Of a stretch of 64,000 nt of DNA, positions 1-24,608 are shown one piece after another (position 1 is the first letter of the stretch; each line of letters begins with the position of its first letter). Below the pieces are notes generated by a model. That model made no database searches. It was not told where the DNA came from and saw only the letters and a program-made list of their open reading frames with translations. The stretch covers positions 310,001 to 374,000 of the forward strand of contig NZ_SBKP01000001.1 of NCBI RefSeq assembly GCF_004122115.1. Reading direction: 5' to 3'. Made by a program: the position numbers and the translations under genes. The stretch comes from Sphingobium fluviale. GTDB taxonomy: Bacteria > Pseudomonadota > Alphaproteobacteria > Sphingomonadales > Sphingomonadaceae.

Positions 1-690
1 CCCTTCCTGAGGTTCAATCGCAGGATATTTTTCCAACACACTGAAATACTTCAGATCAACGCCGTTATCGAGCGCCCTCACATCCGCGCCATGCACCCCG
101 GCGGTGCGCACGAACATATCTGCCTCCGCCGCGCTGACGAAGGTTGAGACATCCGCCCGCAGCGCCGTTTCCGCCTCAAAGCGCATCAGTACGCGCCCCT
201 CGCGCCGGTTGACCCAGCCCATCACGCCGCCCTGCCCCGTCCCATAAGCCGCATATTTCGCGCTGTCGAAATCGACGAAATCCATCACGAAGCGAACGCC
301 CTCTGGCAGATCGCGCGGCACGAAATGCGCCATTTGCGCCGAATACGCGACCACGGCGCGGATCGGGCGCGTTGCCAGCACATGCCGCACCCAGCGGTGC
401 ATCGCCGCGCTCTCGTACATCGCAACCAGCATGGGTTGGCGCCTGAGCAAACCGTTCACGCCCGCCACCGCGCGCGACCGCTCCCGCATCACTACGCACT
501 GGCTGGCCGTCAGCGCCGCCATCTCTTCCGCGAAGCCCATGTCCCGCGCGTCATCGGCGAAGCAGCCGACATGCACCGGCCCGATCTCCCGCAACGCATG
601 AAGGATATGGTGCGAGCGGATCTTGTCGCCCCGGTCCGGCGGGAACGGGATGCGATGCACCAGAAACAATATTTCGCCCCCTGCCGCCAT
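1..690 (-). CDS. XrtA/PEP-CTERM-associated sugar transferase (partial)
   Basis: This is a GT-B type glycosyltransferase of the TIGR03087 kind, which adds a sugar during assembly of the exosortase-associated exopolysaccharide in the cytoplasm. The reading frame is open from an ATG at 690 to the window edge, giving 230 codons, so the C-terminal half lies outside. The N-terminus reads MAAGGEILFLVHRIPFPPDR, followed by GDKIRSHH, a typical start for this family. Near the window edge the motif DNGVDLKYF matches the inter-domain segment of family GT4 enzymes. The ATG lies 6 bp after the stop of the FemAB-like gene, so it is the last visible gene of the minus-strand operon. The family assignment is from recognition of motifs; the exact sugar is unknown. 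Confidence 0.85.
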   Translation of the reverse strand, partial: MAAGGEILFLVHRIPFPPDRGDKIRSHHILHALREIGPVHVGCFADDARDMGFAEEMAALTASQCVVMRERSRAVAGVNGLLRRQPMLVAMYESAAMHRWVRHVLATRPIRAVVAYSAQMAHFVPRDLPEGVRFVMDFVDFDSAKYAAYGTGQGGVMGWVNRREGRVLMRFEAETALRADVSTFVSAAEADMFVRTAGVHGADVRALDNGVDLKYFSVLEKYPAIEPQEG

Positions 691-696
691 GACGCC

Positions 697-1743
697 TCAG
701 CCCAGCCCGCGCGATATGTAGGGGCCGATGAAGCTCGCGATAGGAAGCGGCAACCTTTTCCACAGCTGAACCTTGCGTTGATATTGCGGCGAAAGCGGGT
801 TGATGTCGCGCGCCTCGCGGCCCGGCGCGGCGCGGGTGGCGTATGTCAGCGGTTCGCCCTCCCAGCCCCAGGTCTTTTTCCACGCCGCCGGGCCGGTGCC
901 GACCTTGGAGCGGCCAAAATCGAAGTGGGTGCATCCACGTTGGCGGGCATGGCTCATCAGGTGGAAATAGCCTGACTCGTTGGAACGCAGCTTGCGCGCG
1001 GCGAGCGTCGCGCCCTGCCAATAGGGCATGCAGACGCCATTGTGATAGAGGCTGAAAATGGTGGTGAGCGGCGCGCCGTCCTTGCTCACCAGCACGATGT
1101 CGGCATCCTCGCCAAAGGCAGCTAGCACTTCAGCAAACATCGCTTTGGGGAAAACCGGCGTGCCGAGCCGGTGCACATTCTCGGCATAGAGACGATAGTG
1201 AATATCGAGTAGGCGCTTGCTGCGGCCGAATTCGATAGCGAGGCCATTGTCCAGCCCCTTGCGCACCTCTGCGCGGTGCTTGCGGGGGATGGCGAGCAAT
1301 TGCGCCTCGTCATCCGCCTCCAGTGGCTTGGCGAAATTGAGATAGGCGCCGGTCTTGAGCGCCCAGCCCTCGCGTGGCAGCGCCCCGCCGCGCAGCTCCG
1401 CCGTGGGGCAGCTCATCGCCTCCGCCAATCGCCAGCATTCGGCGGCAAGAGCTTCCGCAACTGGTGCATCCTCTGCGAGGATCCCGCCATCGACAGCAAA
1501 GCCGCTGGATACCAAAGCCCGCCCGAACAGGGGCGAGTGGATGAGATTGAGGGGAAGCACGCCAGCAATGTCTCCGCCGCCATGACGGCACACCAGCATC
1601 ATCGCCTGCTGGCCGGTGCCGCGCGCCACTGCGCTGATCCACGCCGGGCGATGAAAGGGGGTGGAGTCCGAGCGCGCGCCGATCCACGCTTCCAGCGCGG
1701 CGACTTGCGCCGCGTCATCCAGATTGGCGCGCGAGACGATCAT
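697..1743 (-). CDS. FemAB-like protein, XrtA/PEP-CTERM system-associated
   Basis: This 348-residue protein belongs to the FemAB/GNAT-like acyltransferase superfamily found in exosortase-A polysaccharide loci (TIGR03019 type). The C-terminal part contains HFDFGRSKVGTGPAAWKK, the conserved core of that group, and a preceding segment YWQGATLAARKLRSNE. The ATG at 1743 overlaps the stop of the deacetylase gene as ATGA. Another ATG five codons upstream is possible but would overlap more. The family transfers amino-acyl or acyl groups, so a role in decorating the polysaccharide or its lipid carrier is inferred. The substrate has not been defined for the family. Confidence 0.85.
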   Translation of the reverse strand: MIVSRANLDDAAQVAALEAWIGARSDSTPFHRPAWISAVARGTGQQAMMLVCRHGGGDIAGVLPLNLIHSPLFGRALVSSGFAVDGGILAEDAPVAEALAAECWRLAEAMSCPTAELRGGALPREGWALKTGAYLNFAKPLEADDEAQLLAIPRKHRAEVRKGLDNGLAIEFGRSKRLLDIHYRLYAENVHRLGTPVFPKAMFAEVLAAFGEDADIVLVSKDGAPLTTIFSLYHNGVCMPYWQGATLAARKLRSNESGYFHLMSHARQRGCTHFDFGRSKVGTGPAAWKKTWGWEGEPLTYATRAAPGREARDINPLSPQYQRKVQLWKRLPLPIASFIGPYISRGLG

Positions 1744-2609
1744 GCGGCGGGCCAGCATGGCGCATCTTTTGCCTGATCGGCTGCGACCGCGTCCACCCTG
1801 CCCCAGCGAAACGCCGCGATCAGCCGGTCAAGCTTGGCCTCGGTGGTCGCAAGGTTGGTGTAGTGGCGCAGGCGAGACTTGAGCGGCGCGTGCCTCACGC
1901 GAGGCTGATCCGCGTCTATCTCCCACGGGTGAAAGTAAAAGATCGCCGGGCGCTGATCGGTGCGGTTCACCTGCCCCACGGCCCAGCGGGTGAAGCCATA
2001 AGGCATCAGCCGGAAAAACCCGCCGCCGCCCGCCGCAATGGTGCGACCCAGAAGCTGCGCCGTCGTCACTGGCAGTTCGATCAGCGGTGAATCATTGAGT
2101 GGGCGATAGGCAAAGCGCGGCGCTTCCGGCCAGCCATAATGATCGTGGCGCACCGGGGCGACGCTGCTCGAATAGCTATAGCCCTCTTCGGCAAGGACGG
2201 AATGCGCCCATGGGGTGCGTGCGTCGATGGAAAAGCTCGGCGCGCGATAGCCACGCACCGGAACCGCGCCCGCCTGTTCCAGCAGCGTGCGTGATTTGCG
2301 CAGGTCCGCACGGAATTGCTCAGGGCTGAAAGTGAAGACGCGCTGGTGATCATAACCATGGCTCGCCAATTCATGCCCAGCGGCAACGATGCGCCGAATG
2401 AGGTCCGGGTGCCGCTCCGCCACCCAGCCCAGCGTGAAGAACGTCGCCTTCACATCGCGGCGGGCAAACAGATCGAGCAGCCGGTCGGTATTGCCAACCA
2501 CGCGGGATTCGCAGTGGCACCAGTCAGCGCGCGAGAACGTGGTCTCAAAGGCACCAACCTGAAACCAGTCCTCAACATCAATAGATAAAGCATTGATTAT
2601 ATTTGACAT
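1740..2609 (-). CDS. Polysaccharide deacetylase, XrtA-associated (DUF3473)
   Basis: This 289-residue enzyme is a NodB-fold polysaccharide deacetylase with the C-terminal DUF3473 extension found in exosortase loci. It is expected to remove N-acetyl groups from the exopolysaccharide. The N-terminal motif SIDVEDWFQ supplies the catalytic and metal-binding aspartates, and ELASHGYDH holds the metal-binding histidines. RGYRAPSFS is the next conserved motif, and FYFHPWEID lies in the DUF3473 part. I start at the ATG at 2609; a TTG one codon upstream is less likely. It sits 25 bp after the ATPase gene and overlaps the FemAB-like gene by 4 bp, so the three are probably co-transcribed. Confidence 0.9.
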   Translation of the reverse strand: MSNIINALSIDVEDWFQVGAFETTFSRADWCHCESRVVGNTDRLLDLFARRDVKATFFTLGWVAERHPDLIRRIVAAGHELASHGYDHQRVFTFSPEQFRADLRKSRTLLEQAGAVPVRGYRAPSFSIDARTPWAHSVLAEEGYSYSSSVAPVRHDHYGWPEAPRFAYRPLNDSPLIELPVTTAQLLGRTIAAGGGGFFRLMPYGFTRWAVGQVNRTDQRPAIFYFHPWEIDADQPRVRHAPLKSRLRHYTNLATTEAKLDRLIAAFRWGRVDAVAADQAKDAPCWPAA

Positions 2610-2634
2610 CAACGCCCCTGCTCAGAATCCGCCC

Positions 2635-3858
2635 TCAGGCCGCGCGGCTTTCCGGGTTTTCATTTTCCACCCAGTCGACCAGCAGGTTCAGCACCTTGCG
2701 CAGCGCTGCTTCCTGCTCGTCGCCACGCGCCTCAAGGCCGTGGACCCGCGCCTCGATGGCGTCAAGACGCTCGGCCAGCGCCCGCTGCTCCGGCGCGCGA
2801 TCGCCGCTGAGGTTGATGACACGGCGCAGCGCGTCCAGCTCCTCGCGGATGCGGTACAGCTCCAGCGGGGCGGCATCTGGCGCATCGTCCAGATCGACGA
2901 CTGACACATCATCTTCTGTCACATCGGCCATATGCAGCGGCTCGACTTCCTCGGCAAGCGCGTCTGGCGCGGCAACGGGGTCCTCTGTCGCCACGACCTC
3001 GGTCGCCACCGGCTCAGACGCAGATGTAGATGCGGCGACGGCACCGCTATCGTCCAGCCCCATATCGGCAGCGACGGCTTGCACCGCCTGCGCGCCGATC
3101 TCAGTCAAGTGATCGACCGCTCCAAGCAGCATCACCCGGCTCATCAGCGCGTTGATGCGGCGGGGCACGCCGTCAGTCGCCGCATAGATGGCGGCAAAGG
3201 CATCACCCGTGAAATGCGGATTGCCGGTCCAGCCGACAAGCGAAAGCCGGTGACGGATATACGGCTCCACCTCGTTGGCGAGCATCGGCTCAAGGTGATG
3301 CGTCGCGATCACGCGCTGGCGCAGCTGCTCCAGCTCCGGCGCGTTCATCAGATCGCGGAACTCCGGCTGGCCGAGCAGGAAGATCTGCAGCAGCGCCTGC
3401 CCGCCGAGCTGGAAATTGCTGAGCATCCGCAGCTCCTCGATGGCGGAGACCGAAAGCCCCTGCGCCTCATCGACGATCAGGAGCGTGCGAAGCCCCTTGC
3501 GCGCTTGCGCATGCAGAAACGCCTCGATCCTCTGAAGCAGTTGCGCCTTGGGCAGATGCTCTTCGGTGACGCCGAACTGTTGCGCGACAAGGCGGAGCAG
3601 GTCATCCCCCTCCACCTGCGTCGAGACGATCTTGACCGCGGTGAGGCGCTGCGGGTCGATGCTCGACATCACATGGCCGACCAGAGTCGTCTTGCCCGCG
3701 CCGATCTCGCCGGTGATGACGATGAAGCCCTCGCCCTGCGCCAGCCCATAGCCGAGATAGGACAGCGCCTTGCGGTGCGTGCCGCTCTCGAAATAGAAAT
3801 GCGGGTCCGGCGTCAGTTGAAACGGGCGGCCCTTCAGCGCGTAAAACTGGTCATACAT
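2635..3858 (-). CDS. XrtA/PEP-CTERM-associated AAA ATPase
   Basis: This 407-residue protein matches the TIGR03015-type ATPase of exosortase loci, related to the ExeA/GspA AAA group. The N-terminus MYDQFYALKGRPFQLTPDPH is characteristic. The Walker A motif is GEIGAGKTTL near residue 55, and Walker B is LLIVDEAQGL. After the AAA domain there is an acidic, low-complexity linker from about residue 270, then a C-terminal segment with heptad-like leucines that may form a coiled coil. An open frame extends upstream of the chosen ATG, but the conserved family start is at 3858. A 28-bp gap separates it from the outer-membrane gene. The partner of the ATPase is not known; assembly of the export machinery is an inference. 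Confidence 0.9.
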   Translation of the reverse strand: MYDQFYALKGRPFQLTPDPHFYFESGTHRKALSYLGYGLAQGEGFIVITGEIGAGKTTLVGHVMSSIDPQRLTAVKIVSTQVEGDDLLRLVAQQFGVTEEHLPKAQLLQRIEAFLHAQARKGLRTLLIVDEAQGLSVSAIEELRMLSNFQLGGQALLQIFLLGQPEFRDLMNAPELEQLRQRVIATHHLEPMLANEVEPYIRHRLSLVGWTGNPHFTGDAFAAIYAATDGVPRRINALMSRVMLLGAVDHLTEIGAQAVQAVAADMGLDDSGAVAASTSASEPVATEVVATEDPVAAPDALAEEVEPLHMADVTEDDVSVVDLDDAPDAAPLELYRIREELDALRRVINLSGDRAPEQRALAERLDAIEARVHGLEARGDEQEAALRKVLNLLVDWVENENPESRAA

Positions 3859-3886
3859 CGTCGTGTTTCTCCACGGGGCCGCGCCC

Positions 3887-5479
3887 CTAGAATGTATAGC
3901 GCACGCCCACCTGCCCCAGCAGGTTGACGACGGTTTCGATGGCGGTGGTATCGAGCGCATCCAGCCCCAGCGAGGCCTGCGCGCTTAAGTGCCGCCCGAA
4001 TTGCCGGTTGTAAGTGGTGTACGCCCCGTAATTGGTCACATCAATGCCGCCCACCGGCGCATCGAGATAGTTGGCATAGAGGCTGGCGCCCAGGCTCGAC
4101 GCGATGTCGATCTTGTGCCCGCCGAACAGCTGCGCGTAATAATAGTCGCTGTGCGCGCCGCTGACGCCGGTGAAGATCGAGCCGCGTGGGGCGAGGAACT
4201 TGCGCTGGGACCACCCACCGGCGGCGCCCCAGTTCCACCGGCGCCCTGTCCATCCATATTGCGCCGCTATGCCGCGATGACGGAAGTTGGAGCCGTTGAT
4301 CGCGGCCAGCGTATCGTTGAGGCAGGTGCCGCCGTTCTGGCCGCTGACGCATCCGGTCAGGTCGCCGCTGAACGGATTGCGTCCGGCGGTAAAATCCGTC
4401 GGCAGAGCGACGAGATTGCCGTGCAGCGCGCGGCCGAAGCTGTCGATCCGGTCGAAATAGGCAATCTGCAACAGGCTGTGCGGGCTGGCGCGCCAGGTGA
4501 AGCTGCCGATATAGTGCATGCTGTCATAGCGCTCGCCTATGCGCGCCTCCAGCGAAGTGCGGCGGCTGGGGCGCCAGAGTACGCCCGCATCCCAGATGAG
4601 GCCTTCCGTGTCATAGGCGATGAGGCGCGGCACGGACGTATCCGAGATCAACCGCCCTTTGCCATCGAGCACCGGGTTGCCCGCGCCATCCACCAGTGCG
4701 GCGCGCTGATCGATCTTGATGTCCTCATAGCCAACGCCGCCCACCAGTGCGAGCGTGGGAGAGACGGGCACGGTCACATCGCCCCGAATCCACTTATCCT
4801 GATAACGCTGATCGAGCTCGCTCGCGTCCTCGCGGTCATAGCCGACGCCGAGCGCCCAGCCGAAGGGCAGCGGGCCGGGCTGCATGCCGACGGATGCGGT
4901 TGCGCTCTGGTAGACGCTTTCGTCAAACACGCCGAACGCCGGGATGCCGCCTACGCTCAGGTTCACATCATCCTCGATCCGCGTATAGCCGATGCGGTAG
5001 GCCGCGTTGACCGAGAGATCGTTGACGTGGGTGGTGAGCGTCGGCCCGGCATAGAGCGAATAAAGCTGCGACACAGAGTCGCCCGCCGTGATAAGCGTGC
5101 CGCCATTGGCACTCGACAGGCCATCGGTACGCACCCGCGTGGCGAGCGCGCCGCCCTCGATGGACAGTTTGCTGGGGATCACCGCATAGCGGCCACGCAG
5201 CATGCCGGAGAGGATATCGCTGTCGGGTGCGCGTTTGCCCCAGCCGAATTGATGCTCATAGCGGGCGTCGGCACGCACCTCGGTGCGGGCGGTCTGGAAC
5301 GTGGCGTCCACGCCCGCCGCGAGCGAGGTGTAGGTCAGCACATCCTCCGCGCCGCCCTTGAGGTTCGCCACAAAGGTCTGGTTCGCCTCGATATAGGGAT
5401 GCACCTCGGTCCGCGCCAGCACAGGGTGCGAGGAGGCGGTGGCGGCAAGTGCTGTCAGGGCGAGGAGGGAACTGCGCAC
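3887..5479 (-). CDS. TIGR03016-type outer-membrane protein of the XrtA locus
   Basis: This 530-residue protein has an N-terminal signal peptide ending near VLARTE and a body made of alternating amphipathic stretches that end in GQVGVRYTF. A terminal phenylalanine is typical of outer-membrane beta barrels. Its size and position between the kinase and the ATPase match the TIGR03016 family of PEP-CTERM system-associated proteins. It is likely part of the outer-membrane route for the polysaccharide. The start is a GTG at 5479 with a GGGAGGG sequence upstream, 6 bp after the kinase stop. The barrel role is inferred from composition and from related loci. Confidence 0.8.
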   Translation of the reverse strand: MRSSLLALTALAATASSHPVLARTEVHPYIEANQTFVANLKGGAEDVLTYTSLAAGVDATFQTARTEVRADARYEHQFGWGKRAPDSDILSGMLRGRYAVIPSKLSIEGGALATRVRTDGLSSANGGTLITAGDSVSQLYSLYAGPTLTTHVNDLSVNAAYRIGYTRIEDDVNLSVGGIPAFGVFDESVYQSATASVGMQPGPLPFGWALGVGYDREDASELDQRYQDKWIRGDVTVPVSPTLALVGGVGYEDIKIDQRAALVDGAGNPVLDGKGRLISDTSVPRLIAYDTEGLIWDAGVLWRPSRRTSLEARIGERYDSMHYIGSFTWRASPHSLLQIAYFDRIDSFGRALHGNLVALPTDFTAGRNPFSGDLTGCVSGQNGGTCLNDTLAAINGSNFRHRGIAAQYGWTGRRWNWGAAGGWSQRKFLAPRGSIFTGVSGAHSDYYYAQLFGGHKIDIASSLGASLYANYLDAPVGGIDVTNYGAYTTYNRQFGRHLSAQASLGLDALDTTAIETVVNLLGQVGVRYTF

Positions 5480-5485
5480 GGCGTA

Positions 5486-6448
5486 TCAGCCCTCCCGGCC
5501 ATAATAGGTGCCGAAGCGGCGTCCGCTGGCGGAGAATTTGACGCCATTGAGCATCAGTTGCACGTTGCGGCAGCCGTTCAGAAGCTCTGCCGCATCGCGC
5601 AGCGCCGTCTCGCTGGTGCGATCTGCGCGGACAACCAGAAGCGTCAGGTCAACATGCGCGGCGAGGATAGAGGCAGCGGAAGCGGCCAGCAAGGGCGCGG
5701 AATCGATGATGACAATCCGCTCTGGCCGGCCTGAAACCAGCGCCGCAATCACAGAGTCCATCTGCGCCGAGGCAAGAAACTCGCCATCGCGCGTCGTGCC
5801 GGTTCCAGCCGGCAGGACGGAAAGGCCGGGCACATCGGTGCGGATCACATAATCCTCAACGCGCAGCGCCGGATCGGCCAGCACGTCGAGCAAACCCTTA
5901 TGTACTTCCAGCCCCAACACGCGCGGCGCATCGGGCTTGGCGACATCGCCATCGACCAGCAGCACCTCGATATTGCTCTCGGCAGCGAGCGAGAGCGCGA
6001 GGTTGACCGCGCAAAAGGTCTTGCCATCACCGGGATGCGCAGACGCAACGAGCACGACGCGCCCATCCTCATGAGGGCTGCCCTCTGACCGCAAACCCGC
6101 CTGCAATTCGCGCTTGATGATGCGGAACTCCTCGGCCAAGCCGGTGATCGGCGCGCCGGGGACGATGAAGCCGTTCTCGCCAAGCACATCGCGGTCAAGC
6201 TTTTGCACCGGGCCGGTCCAGTCTGCCGCGCGCGGCCTGGGCGCGATGCCGGGCGCGCTCGTCTGCGCAACAGGCGCGGGTGTATAAACCGGCGGCGGCG
6301 GAATCAGCTCCTGCGGCACCGCGAGTGGCGGCAGCCCCTGCCCTTTCAGCGCGCCGCCGAAATCGAATATGTCAGACGCGCGCTCCAGCAGCCCCTTGGC
6401 CGGGGTGGCAGCGTCGCGGTCGCTATGCGGAAAATCCTGTTTGCCCAT
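5486..6448 (-). CDS. XrtA-associated tyrosine autokinase (BY-kinase, CpsD/CapB-like)
   Basis: This 320-residue protein is the cytoplasmic kinase half of a polysaccharide co-polymerase pair. The Walker A motif is HPGDGKTFCAVNLA, the A' motif is VLLVDGDVAKPD and the Walker B is RIVIIDSAPLLA. The family controls chain length through tyrosine phosphorylation. The C-terminus FGTYYGREG has only two tyrosines, so the usual tyrosine-rich tail is very short. I chose the ATG at 6448 because AAGGAG lies 9 bp upstream. Another ATG at 6466 overlaps the upstream stop as ATGA and adds six residues. The gene follows the chain-length determinant by 14 bp, so kinase and membrane activator are separate proteins. 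Confidence 0.88.
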   Translation of the reverse strand: MGKQDFPHSDRDAATPAKGLLERASDIFDFGGALKGQGLPPLAVPQELIPPPPVYTPAPVAQTSAPGIAPRPRAADWTGPVQKLDRDVLGENGFIVPGAPITGLAEEFRIIKRELQAGLRSEGSPHEDGRVVLVASAHPGDGKTFCAVNLALSLAAESNIEVLLVDGDVAKPDAPRVLGLEVHKGLLDVLADPALRVEDYVIRTDVPGLSVLPAGTGTTRDGEFLASAQMDSVIAALVSGRPERIVIIDSAPLLAASAASILAAHVDLTLLVVRADRTSETALRDAAELLNGCRNVQLMLNGVKFSASGRRFGTYYGREG

Positions 6449-6462
6449 GTCTGGCGGCTCCT

Positions 6463-7983
6463 TCATGCCATGCCGCGCTGGATGAACTCGACGACGATGA
6501 GCAGCATGCACGCCGCGCCCAACGCGCCGCTCGCGCCTGCAAACAGCTTCATCTTGTGCTTGCGCTCCGCAATCTGCGTGGCGTTCAGCGTCTCTGTGAT
6601 CGTGCCGATAACCGGCAGGCCAGCCGCTTTCGCCAGCCGCGCCGCCGTCGGGAAGGTGGGATGCACCTGCCCCAGCATGAACGCGGTGCCAACGCCCGCG
6701 CCAATACCGACGATCAGCACACCAACGAGCAGCAACGGCCGGTTGGGCGAGGCAGGCGCGGTCGGCATGCTCGGCGGGTCGATGATGCGGAAGCTCGCGC
6801 CCTTGGTCTCGCTCTGCACGTCGCCACGCAGGCGGACTTCGCCCCGGTCAGAGAGCAGCTTGTCATATTGGGCCTTCAGGACGTCATAATCCCTGTCCAG
6901 CCGCTCGCCTTCGGAAGCGAGGCCGGGGTCGGCGATCTGCCGCGCGGTGATCGCCGCAAGATCGGCCTCGATCTGGCTCTTGCGCGCCGAAAGCGCATTT
7001 ACCGCCGCCGCGCGCTCTGCCTGCATCGAACGGATCGAGAGATAGGCCGGGTTGGGCGCGCTGCTGCCTGCGTTCGCCGCGCCACCGCCCGCCGCCTTGA
7101 TCGCGGCAATCTGGCGCTTCATCGCGATCACGTCAGGGTGATTGTCGGTCCAGCCACGCGCCTTGGCAGACGCCAGTTCTCCTTGCGCCTGAGCCAAGGC
7201 CGAGGGGCTGCCGCCGCCAACGCTGCCGCCCGGAATCGTCGCGGGCGTTCCCGCAAGCTGGCCGTTCATCGCCGCCAATGCGCTCTGCGCGCCCATGAGC
7301 TGAGACTCGATCTGGTTCAGTTCGGTCTGCGCCGCTGCCATGCGGTCAAAGATCGAGCCTGCGCCGGGCAAAATCCCCGCAAACTGCTGGTTGAACTCCA
7401 CCCGCTTCTTTTCCGCGTCGGCCAGCGCCTTGCCGGTCTGCGCGATCTGCTGATCGAGGAAGGCGAGGCCTTGTTTCGTCTCATCGCGGTTGCCGGTGAT
7501 GTTCTCTTCCTGAAAGATGTCGAGCAGCTTCTGCGTGATCTGGTTGGCAAGGCGCGCATTGGCACGGTCAGAATTGCCGCTGTCCGCGATTGTGGTGGTG
7601 ATCTCGAACAGGTTGTTCTCGCTGGAGACGATGGCGATCTTGTCTTTCAGCGACCCGGCGCGCGCGGCAATATCCGCCTCTGACGCCACCGTGCCTGCCA
7701 GATCGGTGCCGCGCACCACCTTTTCCAGATTGGCCGCGCTGCCCAAAGTCTGGCGGATGGCATCGAGGTTTTTCTGCTGTTCAACCGCCGAAATGCCGAT
7801 CTTGTCCTGAATCACCGACTGCGTGGCGACAAAGACTTTCGCCTTCGATTCATAGGCATTGGGGATCAGCGAGACGGCCAGCCACCCCGCGACACACACG
7901 CCCCATGCCACCGCCAGCGCCAGCCAGCGCCGGTTCCAGACGCCGTGGAGCGCGATCAGCAGTTCGTCATAGAGGCTGGGCAT
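6463..7983 (-). CDS. Chain-length determinant (Wzz/GumC-type) of the XrtA locus
   Basis: This 506-residue inner-membrane protein sets polysaccharide chain length and activates the neighbouring kinase. A first membrane segment lies near residues 19-40 (ALAVAWGVCVAGWLAVSLIP). A long periplasmic coiled-coil region follows, with many Q, A and K residues. A proline-rich segment SMPTAPASPNRPLLL leads into the second membrane helix near residue 410, and a last hydrophobic stretch lies near the C-terminus. This layout fits PEP-CTERM locus chain-length proteins. The ATG at 7983 is 27 bp after the export lipoprotein gene. The start has only a weak ribosome binding site. Confidence 0.9.
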   Translation of the reverse strand: MPSLYDELLIALHGVWNRRWLALAVAWGVCVAGWLAVSLIPNAYESKAKVFVATQSVIQDKIGISAVEQQKNLDAIRQTLGSAANLEKVVRGTDLAGTVASEADIAARAGSLKDKIAIVSSENNLFEITTTIADSGNSDRANARLANQITQKLLDIFQEENITGNRDETKQGLAFLDQQIAQTGKALADAEKKRVEFNQQFAGILPGAGSIFDRMAAAQTELNQIESQLMGAQSALAAMNGQLAGTPATIPGGSVGGGSPSALAQAQGELASAKARGWTDNHPDVIAMKRQIAAIKAAGGGAANAGSSAPNPAYLSIRSMQAERAAAVNALSARKSQIEADLAAITARQIADPGLASEGERLDRDYDVLKAQYDKLLSDRGEVRLRGDVQSETKGASFRIIDPPSMPTAPASPNRPLLLVGVLIVGIGAGVGTAFMLGQVHPTFPTAARLAKAAGLPVIGTITETLNATQIAERKHKMKLFAGASGALGAACMLLIVVEFIQRGMA

Positions 7984-8010
7984 AATAGGTCGTCCGGTCT
8001 TTCTCGCGGG

Positions 8011-8661
8011 TCAGAACATGCTCTCTGGGATGATGATCACATCGCCGGGCGAGAGCTGAACATTGGCCTTGATGTCGCCCTGCTTGATGAGGTCGTTGAT
8101 CCGCACCTTATATTCCTTCTGTTTGCCGCTAGTCTTGTCATAGCGGACGAGGCGCGCACGGTTGCCGGCGGCATATTCGGAAAGGCCGCCGACCGCGATC
8201 ATCGCGTCAAGCAGGGTCATGTTCGCGCGATAGGGCAGCGAGGCGGGCTTTTCTGTCGCGCCGACGATGCGGATCTGCTGGCTGTAAGTGCCGGAGAAGT
8301 TGTTGACGATCACCGATACCAGCGGATTCTGGATATAGTTGGACAGCGCCAGCTTGATGTCTTCGGACAGCATCTTGGGCGTCTTGCCCACGGCGGGCAT
8401 ATCCGCAATCAGCGGCGTTGTAATCCGGCCATCGGGGCGCACCTGCACCTTCGATCCCAGCTCCGGGTTACGCCAGACGAAGATCGTCAGCTCATCCAGC
8501 GGGCCGATGATATATTCCTCGCCCGGCGCTTCCTGCGTGCCGACGAAGCTTGCGGGCGGAAGCTGCGCGTTCGTCGAGGGTCCGCCGCCGGAGCAGCCCG
8601 CCAGCATCGTCGCGGATGCCGCCAACCCCATGACTAATCTGGAAAATCCCGCTCGCTTCAT
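8011..8661 (-). CDS. Polysaccharide export lipoprotein, Wza/EpsE-like, XrtA-associated
   Basis: This 216-residue protein is an outer-membrane polysaccharide export auxiliary protein. The signal peptide ends in a lipobox (SATMLAGC), so the mature cysteine should be lipidated. The poly-export domain includes GPLDELTIFVWRNPEL and VRPDGRITTPLI, and an SLBB-like segment follows with GDVIIIPESMF at the end. It is expected to form the outer-membrane exit channel with the neighbouring TIGR03016 protein. I start at the ATG at 8661 because the lipoprotein signal begins there; an open frame of 19 codons lies upstream. It is the first gene of the operon, and the 152 bp before it probably contain the promoter, although no clear boxes were recognised. 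Confidence 0.9.
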   Translation of the reverse strand: MKRAGFSRLVMGLAASATMLAGCSGGGPSTNAQLPPASFVGTQEAPGEEYIIGPLDELTIFVWRNPELGSKVQVRPDGRITTPLIADMPAVGKTPKMLSEDIKLALSNYIQNPLVSVIVNNFSGTYSQQIRIVGATEKPASLPYRANMTLLDAMIAVGGLSEYAAGNRARLVRYDKTSGKQKEYKVRINDLIKQGDIKANVQLSPGDVIIIPESMF

Positions 8662-8813
8662 ACCATCCATCCCACGTTCAACACCGTGCTTCCGGGCGTC
8701 TTCACTGAAAACGGCCAAAACACACAGGTCAGCAATATTAGCTGCTATTGCCCGGAAACGGTGAACATTGCGTTAGGATTGGCTGTAAAATCTCGTATGC
8801 CCGGCGGAATTCC

Positions 8814-10058
8814 TCATTCCGAGACTAAAATCTCGCGCGCGGGCGCATGACCGAGGAAGGCGGCGGGCGATGCGGTGGCGCCATAGGCTCCGGCGCAGAA
8901 GATGGCGACGAGGTCTCCTGCCTCCACCGCGGGAAGCTGCACGCGCTCTCCCAGCCGGTCAAGCGGGGTACACAGGCAGCCCACGATACTCACCGGCTCT
9001 TCCACCCCATCTGCCAGCCCATATTTGTTGGCGATGGCAACGGGATAATTGCGCCGAACCACGGTGCCGAAATTGCCGCTCGCCGCAAGCTGATGATGCA
9101 GGCCGCCGTCGACCACGGCAAACCGCTCACCGTGGCTCTCCTTCACATCGATCACGCGGGTGAGATAAACGCCCGCCTCGGCCACCAGATACCGCCCCAG
9201 CTCCAGCGCGAAGGCGGCTCCTTCCAGCGCAGCGGGCACCAGCGTCAGCCCCTCCTCCAGCGCGAGGCCGACCGCGCGGATATCGAGCGGCAGATCGCCG
9301 GGGAAATAGGGCACACCAAATCCGCCACCCAGGTTAACAAGTGGCGGAACCGCGCCCACCTCCTCCGACAGCCGCGCCGCCAGCCCCACAGTTGCCGCCT
9401 GCGCCTCTATGATCGCCACGGCATCTAGCGCCTGGCTGCCCGCGAAGATATGCCAGCCGCGCCAGTCCGCCCCGGCGGCGATCACCCGCCGCGCCAGCGC
9501 CGCGGCGCGATCCGCATCGACACCGAACGGCTTTGCTCCGCCGCCCATCTTCATGCCGGAGCCTTTGAGGTCAAAATCCGGGTTTACGCGCACGGCAAGG
9601 CGCGGAGCAACGCCCACCGCCTCCCCGATCCGCAAGGCCCGCGCCGCTTCGCCCTCCGACTCCAGATTGATCGTTACCCCTGCCTGGATCGCGGCGCGCA
9701 GCTCGTCATCCCGCTTGCCCGGCCCCGCGAAGCTGATCGCTTCCGCCTTCATGCCCGCATCAAGAGCATGCTTGAGCTCCCCGCCAGAGGCGATGTCGAA
9801 CCCGTCGACCAGCTCCGTCATGGCGGCAAGCAGCGGCGGGAAAGGGTTGGCCTTGATCGCATAATGCAGGTGCAGCCCATCGGGCATCGCCGCGCGCAGC
9901 ATCGTTATACGCGCGCGCACCAGCGCCATGTCATAGACGAAGAGCGGGGTATCCCCCGCTTCATCAGCCAGCGCAGCCGCGCCGCAGCCGCCGATCAAGA
10001 GCATGCCGTCTTCTGCTTCGTAACCGGGCGGGATCGGCCCCATCGGCTTCATGCTCAT
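8814..10058 (-). CDS. PLP-dependent decarboxylase, exosortase A system-associated
   Basis: This 414-residue enzyme belongs to fold-type III PLP decarboxylases related to diaminopimelate and ornithine decarboxylases (TIGR03099 type in exosortase loci). The PLP lysine lies in LHYAIKANPFPPLL near residue 68. GGGFGVPYFPG binds the cofactor phosphate, and ELGRYLVAEAG is a further family motif. The ATG overlaps the stop of the ligase as ATGA, so the two are translationally coupled. Together with the ligase and carrier protein it may make a small amine or acyl group attached to the polysaccharide or sorted protein. The true substrate is unknown. Annotation as lysA would be misleading here because of the context. 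Confidence 0.87.
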   Translation of the reverse strand: MSMKPMGPIPPGYEAEDGMLLIGGCGAAALADEAGDTPLFVYDMALVRARITMLRAAMPDGLHLHYAIKANPFPPLLAAMTELVDGFDIASGGELKHALDAGMKAEAISFAGPGKRDDELRAAIQAGVTINLESEGEAARALRIGEAVGVAPRLAVRVNPDFDLKGSGMKMGGGAKPFGVDADRAAALARRVIAAGADWRGWHIFAGSQALDAVAIIEAQAATVGLAARLSEEVGAVPPLVNLGGGFGVPYFPGDLPLDIRAVGLALEEGLTLVPAALEGAAFALELGRYLVAEAGVYLTRVIDVKESHGERFAVVDGGLHHQLAASGNFGTVVRRNYPVAIANKYGLADGVEEPVSIVGCLCTPLDRLGERVQLPAVEAGDLVAIFCAGAYGATASPAAFLGHAPAREILVSE

Positions 10059-11602
10059 GCTACGCTCTCCCCGGCCAGCATGCGCCAGTCCTGCGCCACC
10101 AGCACACGATCGATCTTGCCATTGGCGTTGCGCGGGAAGGCCTCGACCACGCGGATATCAGACGGTATCATGAAATTGGGCAGCTCCTTCTTCAAACTTT
10201 CCCGCAGCGCATCCAGCGCTCCCTCCTGTGTTACCCGTACCAAAAGCACCACCGCCTGCCCCAGACGCGCGTCCGAGACACCCAAGGCCACTGCCTCGGC
10301 GACACCCGCCACAGACTGCGCCGCTTCCTCAACCTCCGTGGGGCTGATGCGGTTGCCTGCTGATTTGATCATCGCATCCTCGCGCCCCACGAAATAGAGC
10401 AAGCCTTCGCTATCCCGCCGCACCGTATCGCCGGACCACACCGCCACTCCGTCATAGCTTGATGAGGGCGGCGCGGGGCGAAACCGCTCCGCCGTGCGCA
10501 CGGGATCGTTCCAATAGCCTTGCGCCACCAGCGGCCCGCAGTGGACAAGCTCGCCCGGCTCGTCATCTGCCGTCAGGCTGCCGTCAGGGCGGCAGACGAG
10601 GATCTCCGCATGGGGTATCGCGCGGCCCATGCTCTCTGGGTGGGTCGCCACCAGTTCCGGCGGCAGATAGGTGGAGCGAAACGCTTCCGTCAGGCCATAC
10701 ATGGGGTAGATGTCGGCGTTGGGAAACAGTGCGGCCAGCCGCCCGATCAGGGCTTTGGTCAATGCCCCGCCGCTGTTGGTGATCCGCCGTAGCCGCCCCG
10801 CTGTTTCGGCAGGCCAGTCCGCCTCGGTGAGCTGCACCCAGAGCGGCGGCACTCCGGCGAGCGTGGTAATCTCCTCCCGCTCCACCGCCTTCACCACATC
10901 GCGCGCGGTCAGGTAATCGAGCGGAACCACCGTGCCGCCAGCGGCCCAGGTGGACAGGAGCTGGTTCTGCCCATAGTCGAAGCTGAACGGCAGCACGCCA
11001 AGCACACGGTCTGCGGGTGTCAGGCGCAGATACTCCGCGACAGAAACCGCGCCGAGCCAGAGGTTCGCATGGCTCAGCATCACGCCCTTGGGCCTGCCTG
11101 TCGAACCAGAGGTATAGAGAATGGCGGCGAGCGTATCCGGCCCGGCGCCAGAGGGTGGTAAGGCAGCGCTGGCTTGCGCTCCGGCCAGCGCCGCGTCATC
11201 GGCAATTGTCCGGCACTCATGCGGCACATCGCCCGGCTCCAGCGCCGCAAGCCGCGCGCCCGTGCCGATCAATAGTGCGGCACCGCTGTCGGAAAGGATA
11301 TGCGCCACTTGCGCGCGCTTGAGCAGGGGGTTGATCGGCACATGGATCAGCCCGGCGCGCGGCGCGGCAAGCGGCAGGATGCAGGCGAGCTTTCCCTTCG
11401 CGAGCCAACTTGCAATCCGGCTGCCCGGCGCAAAGCCCATTGAACCGAGCCAGCCCGCCGTCCGGCCCACCGCTTCCTCCAGCGCCGCGTAGCTCAGCGC
11501 GCCTGCCTTGCCCGCTATCGCCTGCCCCTCTGCGCCAACAGTGGCCATGCCAGCGAGCGGCAGATGGTCTATCGGGTTCAGGGACAAATCACTTAACTCC
11601 AT
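10055..11602 (-). CDS. Acyl-CoA ligase (AMP-forming), exosortase A system-associated
   Basis: This 515-residue enzyme is an adenylate-forming ligase (TIGR03098 type). The P-loop-like motif is ILYTSGSTGRPKGVMLSH, the adenylate-binding motif is YPMYGLTE, and NGKIDR near the C-terminus carries the catalytic lysine. It should activate a carboxylic acid with ATP and load it on CoA or on the nearby acyl carrier protein. The ATG at 11602 is used; a GTG two codons upstream is possible. Its start faces the divergent acyltransferase gene across about 30 bp, so both promoters must lie in or near that short region. The acid substrate is unknown. Confidence 0.88.
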   Translation of the reverse strand: MELSDLSLNPIDHLPLAGMATVGAEGQAIAGKAGALSYAALEEAVGRTAGWLGSMGFAPGSRIASWLAKGKLACILPLAAPRAGLIHVPINPLLKRAQVAHILSDSGAALLIGTGARLAALEPGDVPHECRTIADDAALAGAQASAALPPSGAGPDTLAAILYTSGSTGRPKGVMLSHANLWLGAVSVAEYLRLTPADRVLGVLPFSFDYGQNQLLSTWAAGGTVVPLDYLTARDVVKAVEREEITTLAGVPPLWVQLTEADWPAETAGRLRRITNSGGALTKALIGRLAALFPNADIYPMYGLTEAFRSTYLPPELVATHPESMGRAIPHAEILVCRPDGSLTADDEPGELVHCGPLVAQGYWNDPVRTAERFRPAPPSSSYDGVAVWSGDTVRRDSEGLLYFVGREDAMIKSAGNRISPTEVEEAAQSVAGVAEAVALGVSDARLGQAVVLLVRVTQEGALDALRESLKKELPNFMIPSDIRVVEAFPRNANGKIDRVLVAQDWRMLAGESVA

Positions 11603-11632
11603 GTGCACGACTATACGCTATGCAGACGCATC

Positions 11633-21834: not shown

Positions 21835-21844
21835 ATTCCCGCAC

Positions 21845-21968
21845 CGTCATCCCGGAAGCCGATTTTCTCCAAATCCATTGGGATTTGGTCAGAAAATCGC
21901 GCTATCCGGGATCCAAAATCGAAGCCCCGACTACAGAAGCGGGATCCCGGATCAAGTCCGGGATGACG
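21845..21968. repeat. REP-like palindromic repeat between convergent genes
   Basis: CGTCATCCCGG at 21845-21855 is the reverse complement of CCGGGATGACG at 21958-21968. Inside lies a second hairpin: GATTTTCT and CCAAATCC (21861-21876) pair with GGATTTGG and AGAAAATC (21881-21898). A further inverted pair around CCGGGATCC occurs in the right half. The structure starts 10 bp after the gph stop and ends 6 bp before the stop of the convergent nucleotidyltransferase gene. It resembles the dispersed palindromes common in alphaproteobacteria and could stop transcription from both sides. Confidence 0.7.
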
Positions 21969-21974
21969 TTGGGG

Positions 21975-22970
21975 CTAAACCGGCCGATGGCCCTTGCGCC
22001 ATTTCGTCCACAAATGCCGGATCAGCATCAGCGGCGGCATACGCAACAGGTGCGAGCGGATATAGAAGGCAAGGCCCAGCCATTTGCGGCTGTCTCGCCC
22101 CCACGCGTCACGGGATAGCAGGCGGCGGAGGAACACGCGGTCGGCCAAAGTGACGCGCGTTTCGCCCTGCCCATAAACATGATCGGCCAGTCGCCGCGCG
22201 CGGGCGAGATGCGCAGTCAGGCCATGGCGCGCGGCCCGACGCTCTAATTCAGATTTATCCTCAATTTCTGCAAACAAGCATTTAATATCCCATAGGTTTC
22301 TTAGACCGCCGGATAAATCTCCATCGGCCAGCATATGCGCGACCGCATGGATTATCCTGTCCGCTGGCGACAGCACACGCAGCCCCCCGCCAATCTCCAC
22401 ACTCTGCGCGATCAGCGCCGCTGCGTCTGGCCGGGGCCGCGCAGTGAGGGGAAGGATCGTGTGATGGACGTCGATCATCCGGTCCCGCTCGCGGTGGATA
22501 AGCGGCGGCAGCTCGTGCATCCAGCGGCGGTAATAGGCGTCGTCATAGGGGTCCGGCTTCACCCACTCCCATCCTGCGGCCAGCAGCGCGCCCTCAGCCT
22601 CCTCCAGCCGATCTCGCGGCACGAGGATATCGAGGTCCCCGATCATGCGCCCTCGCGCTGCGTTCAGACCCGCCGCCGCATAGGCCGCGCCTTTCAGCAA
22701 TATCGGCTCCAGCCCTAGCGGCGCGAGGGCTTCCACCGCGCGGTTCGCCTCCCACAGGGCGATGCGTTGTTCCCGCTCGGCATCGCGGCGCGCATCGGCA
22801 AGGATTGCCCGCACCGCATCGGGCACCGCCACATACTCCAGCAGCGCCGCCAGCGTACCGAGCAGCCGCTCTGCACGCGCGGCAGAAAGGATGCCGTTCC
22901 ACTGATCCGCGCGCAATGCAGCGGCGGATTCCGGTGTGCGCATCAACTGAACCAGCGCCGCCGCGCTCAT
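21975..22970 (-). CDS. Nucleotidyltransferase family protein (NTP_transf_5-like)
   Basis: This 331-residue protein resembles uncharacterised nucleotidyltransferases of the PF14907 type. The core is LEPILLKGAAYAAAGLN followed by RGRMIGDLDILVPRDRLEEA, where G-D-L-D-I is the metal-binding motif. DRMIDVHHTILP and SPADRIIHAVAHML are further conserved parts. Its ATG overlaps the stop of the HprK-like gene by 4 bp (ATGA), so they are translationally coupled. Such enzymes occur with HPr-kinase-like proteins in some lasso-peptide clusters, where they act on phosphorylated peptides. Here the substrate is unknown. Confidence 0.75.
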   Translation of the reverse strand: MSAAALVQLMRTPESAAALRADQWNGILSAARAERLLGTLAALLEYVAVPDAVRAILADARRDAEREQRIALWEANRAVEALAPLGLEPILLKGAAYAAAGLNAARGRMIGDLDILVPRDRLEEAEGALLAAGWEWVKPDPYDDAYYRRWMHELPPLIHRERDRMIDVHHTILPLTARPRPDAAALIAQSVEIGGGLRVLSPADRIIHAVAHMLADGDLSGGLRNLWDIKCLFAEIEDKSELERRAARHGLTAHLARARRLADHVYGQGETRVTLADRVFLRRLLSRDAWGRDSRKWLGLAFYIRSHLLRMPPLMLIRHLWTKWRKGHRPV

Positions 22971-23833
22971 GCTACCTCACCCCACAACGCGTCGATGATG
23001 TCCAGCGCCGCCGCGCCGCTCTCATAGTCCACGGCCAGCGCCGGAACACCGGTCACGAAACGATGCAGCGCGTCAAATCCTGCCTCGCCCAGCGCGACAT
23101 AGTTGGTGGACGCCTGCGTCAGGCGCATAAACGCCTCGCCCTGCCCCACCGGCCGCACATCGCGCGCGAAGCCATAGCGCGGGAAAAGCAACAACGCCGG
23201 GCGGGCGGGTTCGCGCATCCGCGCAATCGAATCCTGAGGCGGGATGAGGTGAACGATATCGCCCTTCGGCGTCTCGCGCATCATCGGGCCAAAGCGGGTG
23301 GCGTCGTTCACCTCGGCGCGCATCACGCCAATCGCGGCGTTCTTGAGCGACACGAGGCGCGGAAAAGGGTGTACGCGCCCGTCCGCAAGATCCAGAAGTG
23401 CGAACTCATCGCCCATGAAGCGCCAGCCGCGCTCACCCAGCAGCGCCGCCAGCGTGGACTTGCCCGATCCGGACTCGCCCGTCATCACCAGCGCGCGGCC
23501 GCCCTTTTCGACGCTGCTGGCGTGGATCAGCAGATGCCGCCGCCACCCCAGCGCCATTTGCAGGTTCATCCCCATTTCGGCGGCGAGCAGGCCATGCCGC
23601 AGCGCCATCGGCGCGGCATCGGGCAGCATATGGTCCCCCGCGATCCGCACCGAGGGCCGCCACCAACGCCGCAGTGGCCCGGCAGGCTCCAGCCGCACGG
23701 CATAATCGGCTATAGCGGCGGCGTCTTGCGGATAGGCGGCATAGAGCGCGCGCAACTGCGCAATCGGCTGTTCCCATGCCGAGCCGATGCGAAACGTGGC
23801 CGGGCCGATGGCGAGGGTCAGGCTATGGCGCAA
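22967..23833 (-). CDS. HprK-related kinase A
   Basis: This 288-residue protein resembles the C-terminal kinase domain of HPr serine kinase. The P-loop is VMTGESGSGKSTLAALLGER near residue 118, and MGDEFALLDLADG follows where HprK has its second conserved acidic motif. The N-terminal third has no assigned domain. The start seems to be a TTG at 23833, overlapping the PqqD-like gene by 16 bp; no ATG lies early in the frame. No HPr or PTS gene is present nearby, so it is unlikely to act in carbon repression. It probably phosphorylates another protein or peptide, which is an inference. Confidence 0.75.
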   Translation of the reverse strand: MRHSLTLAIGPATFRIGSAWEQPIAQLRALYAAYPQDAAAIADYAVRLEPAGPLRRWWRPSVRIAGDHMLPDAAPMALRHGLLAAEMGMNLQMALGWRRHLLIHASSVEKGGRALVMTGESGSGKSTLAALLGERGWRFMGDEFALLDLADGRVHPFPRLVSLKNAAIGVMRAEVNDATRFGPMMRETPKGDIVHLIPPQDSIARMREPARPALLLFPRYGFARDVRPVGQGEAFMRLTQASTNYVALGEAGFDALHRFVTGVPALAVDYESGAAALDIIDALWGEVA

Positions 23834-24123
23834 GGCTGGCTTCCGATCAGGCCCAGCGCGGCCAGTTCAGCAAGATGCGCCTCCAGCGCCGCCAGTGCAT
23901 CCCCCTCCTCGCCAAGGTCAAAGCGCGCAGACAGGCGCTCCAGCAACGTCGCCGCCGTTACCGGCTGATTATCCAGCGCCGCGCATATTTCGGGCAAGGG
24001 CGAAGTGAGCATGTGGGTAAGGCCGGAGGGACGATGAAAGACAAGGTTCAGCCCGTCCAGCTCCCGCCAGATGCTCTCATCATCAGCGCACCGCACATAG
24101 GCCCGCGCTTCGCCCGCTTTCAT
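23818..24123 (-). CDS. PqqD-like protein of the HPr-rel-A type system
   Basis: This 101-residue protein looks like a PqqD-fold protein, a small winged-helix domain that in peptide-modification systems binds the leader of the substrate. Visible signs are a beta-rich N-terminal part (LDGLNLVFHRPSGLTHML), a middle helix PLPEICAALDNQPVTAATLL, and a C-terminal helix LEAHLAELAALGLIG. The ATG at 24123 lies 5 bp after the stop of the Tat-type gene, and its end overlaps the kinase gene. The pairing of PqqD-like and HprK-like proteins is known as an uncharacterised gene association. Function here is inferred. Confidence 0.65.
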   Translation of the reverse strand: MKAGEARAYVRCADDESIWRELDGLNLVFHRPSGLTHMLTSPLPEICAALDNQPVTAATLLERLSARFDLGEEGDALAALEAHLAELAALGLIGSQPCAIA

Positions 24124-24128
24124 GAGGC

Positions 24129-24608
24129 TCAGCGGGGCATCTGCAAAGAGGCGTAGCAGGTAAAGCCGCTGGTGCCGCTTTGCAGGCGGCGGATATAGTT
24201 GAGATAGGCGCGGCTCTGCTCATAGGTGGTGCCCGGCAGGGTGCGCCCCCGCAGCGCCGCCTTCACCTCCTCGCCGGTGAAGGGCCGCCCGCTGGCCGGA
24301 AAGGCGCCCTGCGTGCCAGCGGGAACCAGCGAGCCATCGGCCGCGATGGCCTGGCCGGAGCGTGAAGGATCGGGGACCGGGATCTGGCAATGGAGCACAG
24401 AGGCCGCTGTTTGCGCCAGCGCGGGCCGGATGGAAACAACCGCAGAGGCCGCCGCAAGTCCGCCGCCGAGCAGAAGCCGACGCCTGCCGACGCCCTTGTT
24501 GGCCGCGTCCGAAGCCTCCTGCCCGTCAACCGATGGGCAGGCATGGGAGCTGCTTGGGTTTCGTTCGTCCATATCCGTGCCACCCGCCCCTTCAAAAACT
24601 GTCATCAT
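24129..24608 (-). CDS. Small Tat-type exported protein of unknown function
   Basis: This protein of up to 159 residues is not recognised. It has a twin-arginine-like segment GRRRLLLGGGLAAASAVV followed by SIRPALAQ, which looks like a Tat signal with a cleavage site after ALAQ. The mature part has about 95 residues, including LPGTTYEQSRAYLNYIRRLQ and an end SGFTCYASLQMPR. The first ATG at 24608 is listed; an ATG at 24572 would place the twin arginines closer to the N-terminus. It is the first gene of the operon with the PqqD-like, kinase and nucleotidyltransferase genes. It could be the substrate of that system, which is speculative. Confidence 0.6.
   Translation of the reverse strand: MMTVFEGAGGTDMDERNPSSSHACPSVDGQEASDAANKGVGRRRLLLGGGLAAASAVVSIRPALAQTAASVLHCQIPVPDPSRSGQAIAADGSLVPAGTQGAFPASGRPFTGEEVKAALRGRTLPGTTYEQSRAYLNYIRRLQSGTSGFTCYASLQMPR

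Follow-up and report, generated by a model that had tools for sequence, protein, structure and literature searches.

What is modified by an operon that sets three tailoring enzymes behind the gene of an exported protein? The question is raised by a 64,000-nucleotide stretch of the Sphingobium fluviale genome (contig NZ_SBKP01000001.1, positions 310,001 to 374,000; hereafter the window), in which four minus-strand genes fill positions 21975-24608 with spacings, in transcription order and as read from the open reading frames (ORFs), of +5, -16 and -4 bp. They encode, in that order, an exported protein, a PqqD-like recognition element (RRE) of the kind that serves ribosomally synthesised and post-translationally modified peptides (RiPPs), an HprK-related kinase A and a PF14907 nucleotidyltransferase. 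The gene of the exported protein is found to be a partner of the three enzyme genes across genomes, the kinase is linked both statistically and by position to exosortase A (XrtA), and the operon thus suggests an uncharacterised route for the modification of a protein before its export.

Partnership of the exported protein with three enzymes

A search with the kinase yielded 299 relatives, of which the best 80 named loci were kept. Within the stretches fetched, all four genes lie on one strand in 79 of these 80, the stretch of the remaining locus (L102; labels with L denote loci, those with G genomes) stopping 125 nt short of the PqqD frame. In 23 of the 79, the exported gene and the PqqD gene are separated by a gap large enough for a gene; at L065:4450-5649 it holds a gene for a glycosyltransferase of the GT4 type (82 bits to TIGR03088, cut-off 409), the gap being about as large in 21 other named loci and shorter in L119. 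The preliminary description of this DNA had regarded the four genes as a single unit, which agrees with their overlaps or 5-bp gap, their common strand and the 79 of 80 named loci.

Concerning the order, 196 genomes were sampled, 88 of which carry the kinase over its cut-off (as do 51 of the 299 in the phylum sample); two further genomes, G093 and G006, with near-full-length matches slightly under the cut-off, were also counted, giving 90 kinase-positive and 106 kinase-negative genomes. The family of the window, designated f1, accounts for 113 genomes, 32 positive and 81 negative (hand tally). At E < 1e-30, the partner was found in 31 genomes of the order sample, every one of them in f1, i.e. 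in 31 of the 32 kinase-positive versus none of the 81 kinase-negative genomes of the family (Fisher test, kinship ignored), so that the conserved co-occurrence envisaged at the outset is found both in the layout of the loci and in the content of the genomes. The exception, G053, has the kinase, its partner match being weak and on another contig. Weak matches to the partner profile (E 0.007 to 0.1) do occur in kinase-negative genomes and lie outside the count of 0/81, as do single-sequence matches of E 0.001 to 0.01.

The partners are kept even when they are no longer neighbours. In five genomes of the genus g6, the exported gene and the enzymes are 164-685 kb apart or on different contigs, yet both are retained, with no enzyme of the set within 1.5 kb on either side of the partner. 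The one partner site listed, L319:3073-3492, still adjoins a phoR-like gene (identity by eye), and at the enzyme loci L314, L317 and L318 the enzymes stand beside gph- and glmU-like genes (named by eye), with no credible substitute partner before PqqD at these three. A 79-aa frame in L317 fits the partner pattern; it lies inside a longer gene and was judged spurious. The g6 locus has apparently been split, the partner staying by the phoR-like gene and the enzymes by the gph/glmU-like genes. Within the genus g11, the genomes G071, G152 and G180 have kinase, partner and exosortase A, and G083, G131 and G181 are without all three at the thresholds used.

Families were assigned by profiles with curated cut-offs (NCBIfam, Pfam), and the identities proposed earlier for the three enzymes stand, TIGR04353, TIGR04352 and PF14907 all being exceeded (Table 1). 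Both models of the HPr-rel-A type (TIGR04352, TIGR04353) are thus surpassed, with PqqD_rel_X adjacent and the PF14907 gene beside them. The NCBI name of TIGR04353 refers to an 'HPr-rel-A system', of which an adjacent nucleotidyltransferase, such as that present here beside the kinase, is presumably also a part. No published description of the HPr-rel-A system or of the exported partner was found in the open-access literature (subscription papers and preprints being outside its scope), nor any paper for 'HPr-rel-A', 'HprK-related kinase', exosortase with PqqD, or exosortase with HPr kinase.

Judged from the alignments, the predicted active-site residues are conserved in both enzymes. The kinase keeps His104, G122-x-G-K-S-T127, Asp142-Glu143 and Lys190-Gly191 at a level of at least 90% in a 113-row alignment that includes the genome of the window twice, and, in the nucleotidyltransferase, the residues kept over an alignment of 82 rows are Lys93-Gly94, Asp112, Asp114 and a Y-D...H-E...P-P patch. 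The profile built from relatives of the kinase matches the HPr kinases 1ko7 (E 8e-05) and 1jb1 (E 3e-04), the single sequence matching 1jb1 at E 0.035 only. The model of the nucleotidyltransferase (pLDDT 93.4) yielded two Foldseek matches at E <= 0.001, both of them MenT1 entries, with ANT(2'')-Ia ranking next, and the predicted fold is therefore of the nucleotidyltransferase type.

Table 1 Features of the window, with partners lacking the C-terminal motif at other loci
Feature	Position (strand)	Details
Exported partner 'Tat4', probable substrate	24129..24572 (-)	Likely start ATG 24572, 147 aa; ORF opens 24608; basis: sequence, relatives, co-occurrence
Twin-arginine signal, Tat-like	24414..24488 (-)	GRRRLLLGGGLAAASAVVSIRPALA; from sequence; TatC in genome
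S-V-L-H-C after signal	24387..24401 (-)	Conserved Ser four before first invariant Cys; candidate acceptor
T-C-Y-A-S near C-terminus	24147..24161 (-)	[ST]CxxS motif common to several families; candidate acceptor Ser
PqqD_rel_X, RRE-like peptide chaperone	23818..24123 (-)	TIGR04353 65.4 bits, cut-off 35; 5 bp gap to exported gene
HprK_rel_A, HPr-kinase-related kinase	22967..23833 (-)	TIGR04352 241.8 bits, cut-off 200; TTG start; 16 bp overlap with PqqD-like gene
Kinase P-loop GSGKST, residues 122-127	23453..23470 (-)	G122, G124, K125, S126, T127 at >= 90% of 113 rows
NTP_transf_5 nucleotidyltransferase	21975..22970 (-)	PF14907 175.4 bits, cut-off 31.2; 4 bp overlap with kinase
Nucleotidyltransferase DxD pair D112, D114	22629..22637 (-)	Invariant in 35 sequences; presumed catalytic
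XrtA/PEP-CTERM exopolysaccharide genes	1..11608 (-)	About 10 kb from operon; profile matches in 9/10 scanned frames
Twin-arginine-signal partners without CxxS	L229:6488-7210; L231:7460-8203; L236:7157-7834; L242:7382-7984; L243:4374-4862; L247:2319-2876

The exported protein and its counterparts in other families

The start of the exported protein was moved from 24608 to the ATG at 24572 according to the alignment of relatives. Its signal has, by sequence, the layout of a substrate of twin-arginine translocation (Tat)—a twin arginine (RR), a hydrophobic segment and AxA—in line with the Tat-like export signal described previously, and the same genome encodes TatC (244.6 bits). The curated Tat models remain under their cut-offs, both for the partner of the window (TIGR02811, 13.4 versus 48.45) and for that of L170 (TIGR01409, 13.3 versus 16.7); TIGR02811, a Tat-target model, is the sole NCBIfam match of the former at E <= 1, and most of the other partners scanned have no match to such models.

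Within f1, the partner is conserved over its entire mature length (family alignment), the two Cys residues following the signal are invariant in 32 aligned sequences, and the C-terminal end, GFTCYASLQMPR, shows little variation. The Cys of T-C-Y-A-S is probably engaged in a disulfide. No NCBIfam or Pfam family was matched over its cut-off, either by this protein or by 10 diverse partners (best E 0.025), and the best hit of the partner profile in a sequence search of the PDB had E 0.17. It should also be noted that no PEP-CTERM sorting signal was matched in NCBIfam at E <= 1, the C-terminus having no hydrophobic anchor, and the partner is therefore not a standard exosortase substrate.

As to whether the exported gene recurs at other loci with the three enzymes, a point raised in the preliminary description, homologues are found in near relatives, and other families have RR-signal proteins that share the layout. 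There, the f1 partner profile gives weak matches beside the kinase, covering mainly the signal region, and matches elsewhere, too; that in G002 spans nearly the whole length. The proteins at those loci have RR signals, dissimilar middles and a common C-terminal [ST]CxxS. Long Asp-rich or low-complexity inserts between the conserved ends are seen in L184:5745-6569, L185:6310-7146 and L189:3783-4544.

For the counts, 111 loci were taken: 54 from the 58 non-f1 kinase genomes of the order, 23 from the 32 of f1 and 34 from the 49 of the class and phylum samples. The order set leaves out L304 (contig end), L266/G032, G113 and G023 (flank too short); the f1 set leaves out nine genomes, i.e. the five unlinked ones of g6 together with G188, G172, G044 and G071; and the five loci L258-L262 were left out with the kinase below its cut-off. 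An RR frame with SCVSS is present in L266/G032, outside the 111. When RR signals were called by a strict hydropathy rule, 12/55, 17/23 and 10/34 came out as TAT, and the rule was loosened before the final count. The loose rule is met in 103 of the 111 loci (52/54 order, 22/23 f1, 29/34 class/phylum), and RR together with CxxS in the last 45 residues in 91 (49/54, 22/23 and 20/34, respectively). The control of 2543 other ORFs of 90-400 aa from the same loci includes 215 that pass the RR rule, 75 that pass the CxxS rule and 8 that pass both. On reading, L291 and L305, order loci failing the RR rule, carry such a signal, and in L298 the rule picks the wrong spot.

A choice blind to the motif, simply taking the longest ORF before PqqD, finds [ST]CxxS within the last 80 residues in 54/54 order, 19/22 f1 and 20/28 class/phylum loci, with a background of 179 among 2931 ORFs, partners included. 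The three f1 misses (L031, L036 and L288) are cases in which a longer overlapping frame was chosen, the true partner there having the motif.

Further shared features were scored on the 91 partners preselected for RR and CxxS. In 89 of the 91, an even number of Cys residues follows the signal, as would be the case for exported proteins with disulfide pairing; a Ser stands 3 or 4 residues ahead of the first Cys in 84 (49/49 order, 22/22 f1, 13/20 class/phylum); and the signature P-x-hydrophobic-[TS]-hydrophobic is present in the signals of 48/49 order and 20/20 class/phylum partners, 1/22 of f1 and 46/237 control RR ORFs. Two genomes have second partner genes off the kinase locus (L267:2806-3450 and L268:2738-3340) with the same signal and a PG[IV]SC..S end. 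What is new here is that kinase loci outside f1 usually have an RR-signal protein before the RRE, sharing little beyond [ST]CxxS and the Ser before the first Cys.

Exosortase A and the proposed modification

The second link leads to the exopolysaccharide genes at the beginning of the window, which cover a glycosyltransferase, FemAB, deacetylase, ATPase, tyrosine autokinase, chain length, export, decarboxylase and ligase; the frame 1-690 (cut) and the tyrosine kinase are under their cut-offs, and the frame 3887-5479 is without a match. XrtA itself is found 0.55 kb beyond the left edge of the window, its distance from the kinase being about 23.5 kb. Across the order, exosortase A (E <= 1e-20) is present in 84 of the 90 kinase-positive versus 64 of the 106 kinase-negative genomes (hand tally), or in 75 versus 52 genomes when its own cut-off is applied. 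The 52 non-f1 genomes with both kinase and exosortase A comprise 35 with the two on the same contig, all within 15 kb and often 4-15 kb apart; the other 17 have them on separate contigs, many assemblies being fragmented. At four distant loci, a gene beside the partner or the kinase is that of an XrtA export protein in L229, of PrsT in L231, of an XrtA glycosyltransferase in L238 and of an EpsB-type transferase in L242. The preliminary description mentions neither this association with exosortase A/exopolysaccharide loci nor the [ST]CxxS conserved at the C-terminus.

The immediate flanks of the operon are a convergent gph-like gene, with phosphoglycolate phosphatase models just under their cut-offs, and a divergent histidine kinase frame that looks phoR-like by eye. 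An imperfect inverted repeat at 21839-21974, with 18-nt arms 100 nt apart, lies between the gph-like and nucleotidyltransferase genes; it is a single inverted pair, the right half being found once in the window.

In our view, the operon fairly probably encodes a module for protein modification together with the exported protein on which it acts, the full scheme running from binding through phosphorylation, transfer and Tat export to a role in the matrix. The PqqD-like RRE would bind the precursor in the cytoplasm and bring it to the HprK-like kinase. The kinase would phosphorylate a Ser at one of two conserved positions, that of the C-terminal [ST]CxxS or that following directly on the signal, after which the phosphorylated protein would be acted upon by the nucleotidyltransferase (nucleotide or sugar transfer). 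The modified protein would leave folded via Tat, the signal being removed, its two conserved Cys residues would pair as a disulfide, and the product would serve the exosortase A/exopolysaccharide surface system. ATP and other nucleoside triphosphates (NTPs) are cytoplasmic, and the kinase and the nucleotidyltransferase would therefore have to act before export; Tat carries folded proteins. Among the steps that we infer—RRE binding, phosphorylation, second modification, disulfide, Tat export, their order and the matrix role—the RRE binding and Ser phosphorylation are likely and the second transfer is plausible, the exopolysaccharide role being a guess from context. Only tentatively can a bolder version be put forward, in which a phospho- or phosphoglyco-modified protein, made in the cytoplasm and exported folded by Tat, anchors or primes the exopolysaccharide of exosortase A, i.e. 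a protein-linked exopolysaccharide in Pseudomonadota.

Several observations weigh against the modification of an exported substrate as outlined. Kinship among the genomes makes the counts overstate the independent evidence, and the RR rule is loose, 8% of the control ORFs passing it. Eight of the 28 class/phylum loci with PqqD have a chosen ORF without [ST]CxxS: six with a different RR-signal protein (Table 1), L249:5073-5354 with a 94-aa RR frame before PqqD that has NCYLS and an Asp/Gly-rich end and misses the rule, and L248, which is cut by the contig end. Since some class/phylum partners lack it, [ST]CxxS is not the acceptor everywhere. By eye, these CxxS-less partners contain patches of GYWK (L242, L247) or xYLN (L229, L231). 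No PqqD neighbour was recognised in 6 of the 34 class/phylum loci and in the f1 locus L172; among these, a convincing RR partner is present in L245 alone, the RR match of L237 looking spurious. The predicted model of the partner is of low confidence (mean pLDDT 67.5) and has no fold match, neither by Foldseek against the PDB at E <= 0.001 nor by VIA-align at Z >= 2. Exosortase A occurs without the kinase in the 64 genomes mentioned above, and in f1 the two need not be close, being 2.5 Mb apart in the single-contig genome G005. Finally, in the work on linear polyphosphorylated peptides (LPP), the products detected in the test host stayed the same when the NTP transferase was deleted (PMC13381572).

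The linkage to XrtA/exopolysaccharide genes would also suit enzymes that modify an exopolysaccharide precursor (polysaccharide or lipid), the exported protein then being a separate periplasmic helper and not the substrate; the GT4-like gene inside the L065 cluster, with its similar-sized gap in 21 other named loci, speaks for this as well. We hold it to be unlikely: the member of the PqqD family points toward a peptide substrate, the HprK-like kinases whose targets are known modify a Ser in a protein or peptide (PMC8498205, PMC13381572), and the partners retain the RR signal, CxxS and the Ser preceding the first Cys even though their middles diverge. Were the exported protein instead the precursor of a RiPP, from which a short modified peptide is excised, the leader-like conserved N-terminus, short conserved C-terminus and variable middle seen across families would be accounted for, and so would the tandem or second partner copies of some genomes. 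The operon is, however, without a dedicated protease, the f1 partner is conserved over its whole mature length as a folded domain would be, and the even Cys count suggests a disulfide-paired protein, all of which makes such excision quite improbable.

A different role, alongside the neighbouring phoR-like gene in a phosphate response and with the enzymes adjacent by chance, is brought to mind by the divergent phoR-like gene that adjoins both in the window and at the split g6 locus L319 (by eye); we regard it as very improbable, given that other families of the order have the same four-gene set near XrtA (35/52 genomes) and that the partner tracks the kinase within f1. Mere hitchhiking, in which an unrelated exported gene happens to precede three enzymes, appeals to the fact that unrelated genes can share operons; it is left with hardly any credit by the co-occurrence in 31/32 versus 0/81 genomes, by the persistence of partner and enzymes where they are no longer linked and by the recurrence of the layout in other families. 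The module acting on its own exported substrate thus remains the preferred explanation. With it, a kinase family without a described function in the open-access literature gains a concrete candidate for its substrate, as well as candidate residues, and it ties tailoring enzymes of the RiPP type to a Tat-like export signal and to an exosortase A polysaccharide. If the modification is true, RRE-guided kinases would act on folded exported proteins and not on small peptides alone, and the unexplained siting of such modules by polysaccharide genes in two phyla would become testable.

Comparison with known systems

The closest characterised system is that of the LPP of Bacillota, reported in 2026. 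The Paenibacillus cluster is lppA-K-B-S-D-N; LppK adds several phosphates to Ser3 of the core, close after the leader cleavage site, and the leader is removed by a SipW-like signal peptidase with the help of the RRE (PMC13381572). A precedent for the modification of an exported substrate is provided by LppK, whose phosphorylation target is a single Ser in a precursor bound by the RRE (PMC13381572). The likeness extends to a discrete RRE, an HprK-like kinase and an NTP transferase without a cyclase (matched by family assignment), to a precursor with a conserved N-terminus and a variable C-terminus, and to the frequent position of LPP clusters near capsular polysaccharide loci (PMC13381572). The preliminary description had held that the marking of an exported protein by phosphorylation and nucleotide transfer would be new; unqualified, this is too strong, since a module of RRE, HprK and NTP transferase without a cyclase has already been published for Bacillota (PMC13381572). 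The two systems differ in that LPP have a SipW-like leader peptidase, an MsbA-like exporter and a YxxP leader and are reportedly confined to Bacillota (PMC13381572), whereas that of the window has a Tat-like signal, a larger Cys-paired protein and a host from Pseudomonadota. A leader of the YxxP type was not found in the partner of the window, [YW]xxP being present in 1 of 91 partner leaders; neither a SipW-like peptidase nor an MsbA-like exporter is encoded in the operon or its flanks (gph-like, histidine kinase), the rest of the genome not having been searched.

Phosphorylated lasso peptides—paeninodin, pseudomycoidin and that of S. yanoikuyae—offer a second comparison, their HprK-like kinase targeting a Ser of the precursor and, in pseudomycoidin, the phosphate receiving one or two hexoses from a nucleotidyltransferase (review PMC8498205). 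Lasso clusters differ by their macrolactam cyclase and B2 protease (PMC8498205), neither of which is among the four genes, just as the absence of a cyclase and leader protease had been described; the lasso acceptor is, moreover, the C-terminal Ser (PMC8498205), whereas the Ser of the motif in the window stands a few residues inside. The HPr-rel-A system is resembled in that both models are exceeded and a PF14907 gene lies alongside, the difference being an exported partner covered by no NCBIfam or Pfam model. The XrtA/PEP-CTERM system co-occurs, is often physically close and likewise includes an exported protein (PMC1569441), the partner of the window differing by its lack of a PEP-CTERM match. 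Searches of the leaders or the operon revealed no YxxP leader, no dedicated peptidase or exporter and no cyclase, and the system is therefore a member of neither the LPP nor the lasso group; by analogy, it should nevertheless work like the LPP and phosphorylated lasso modules.

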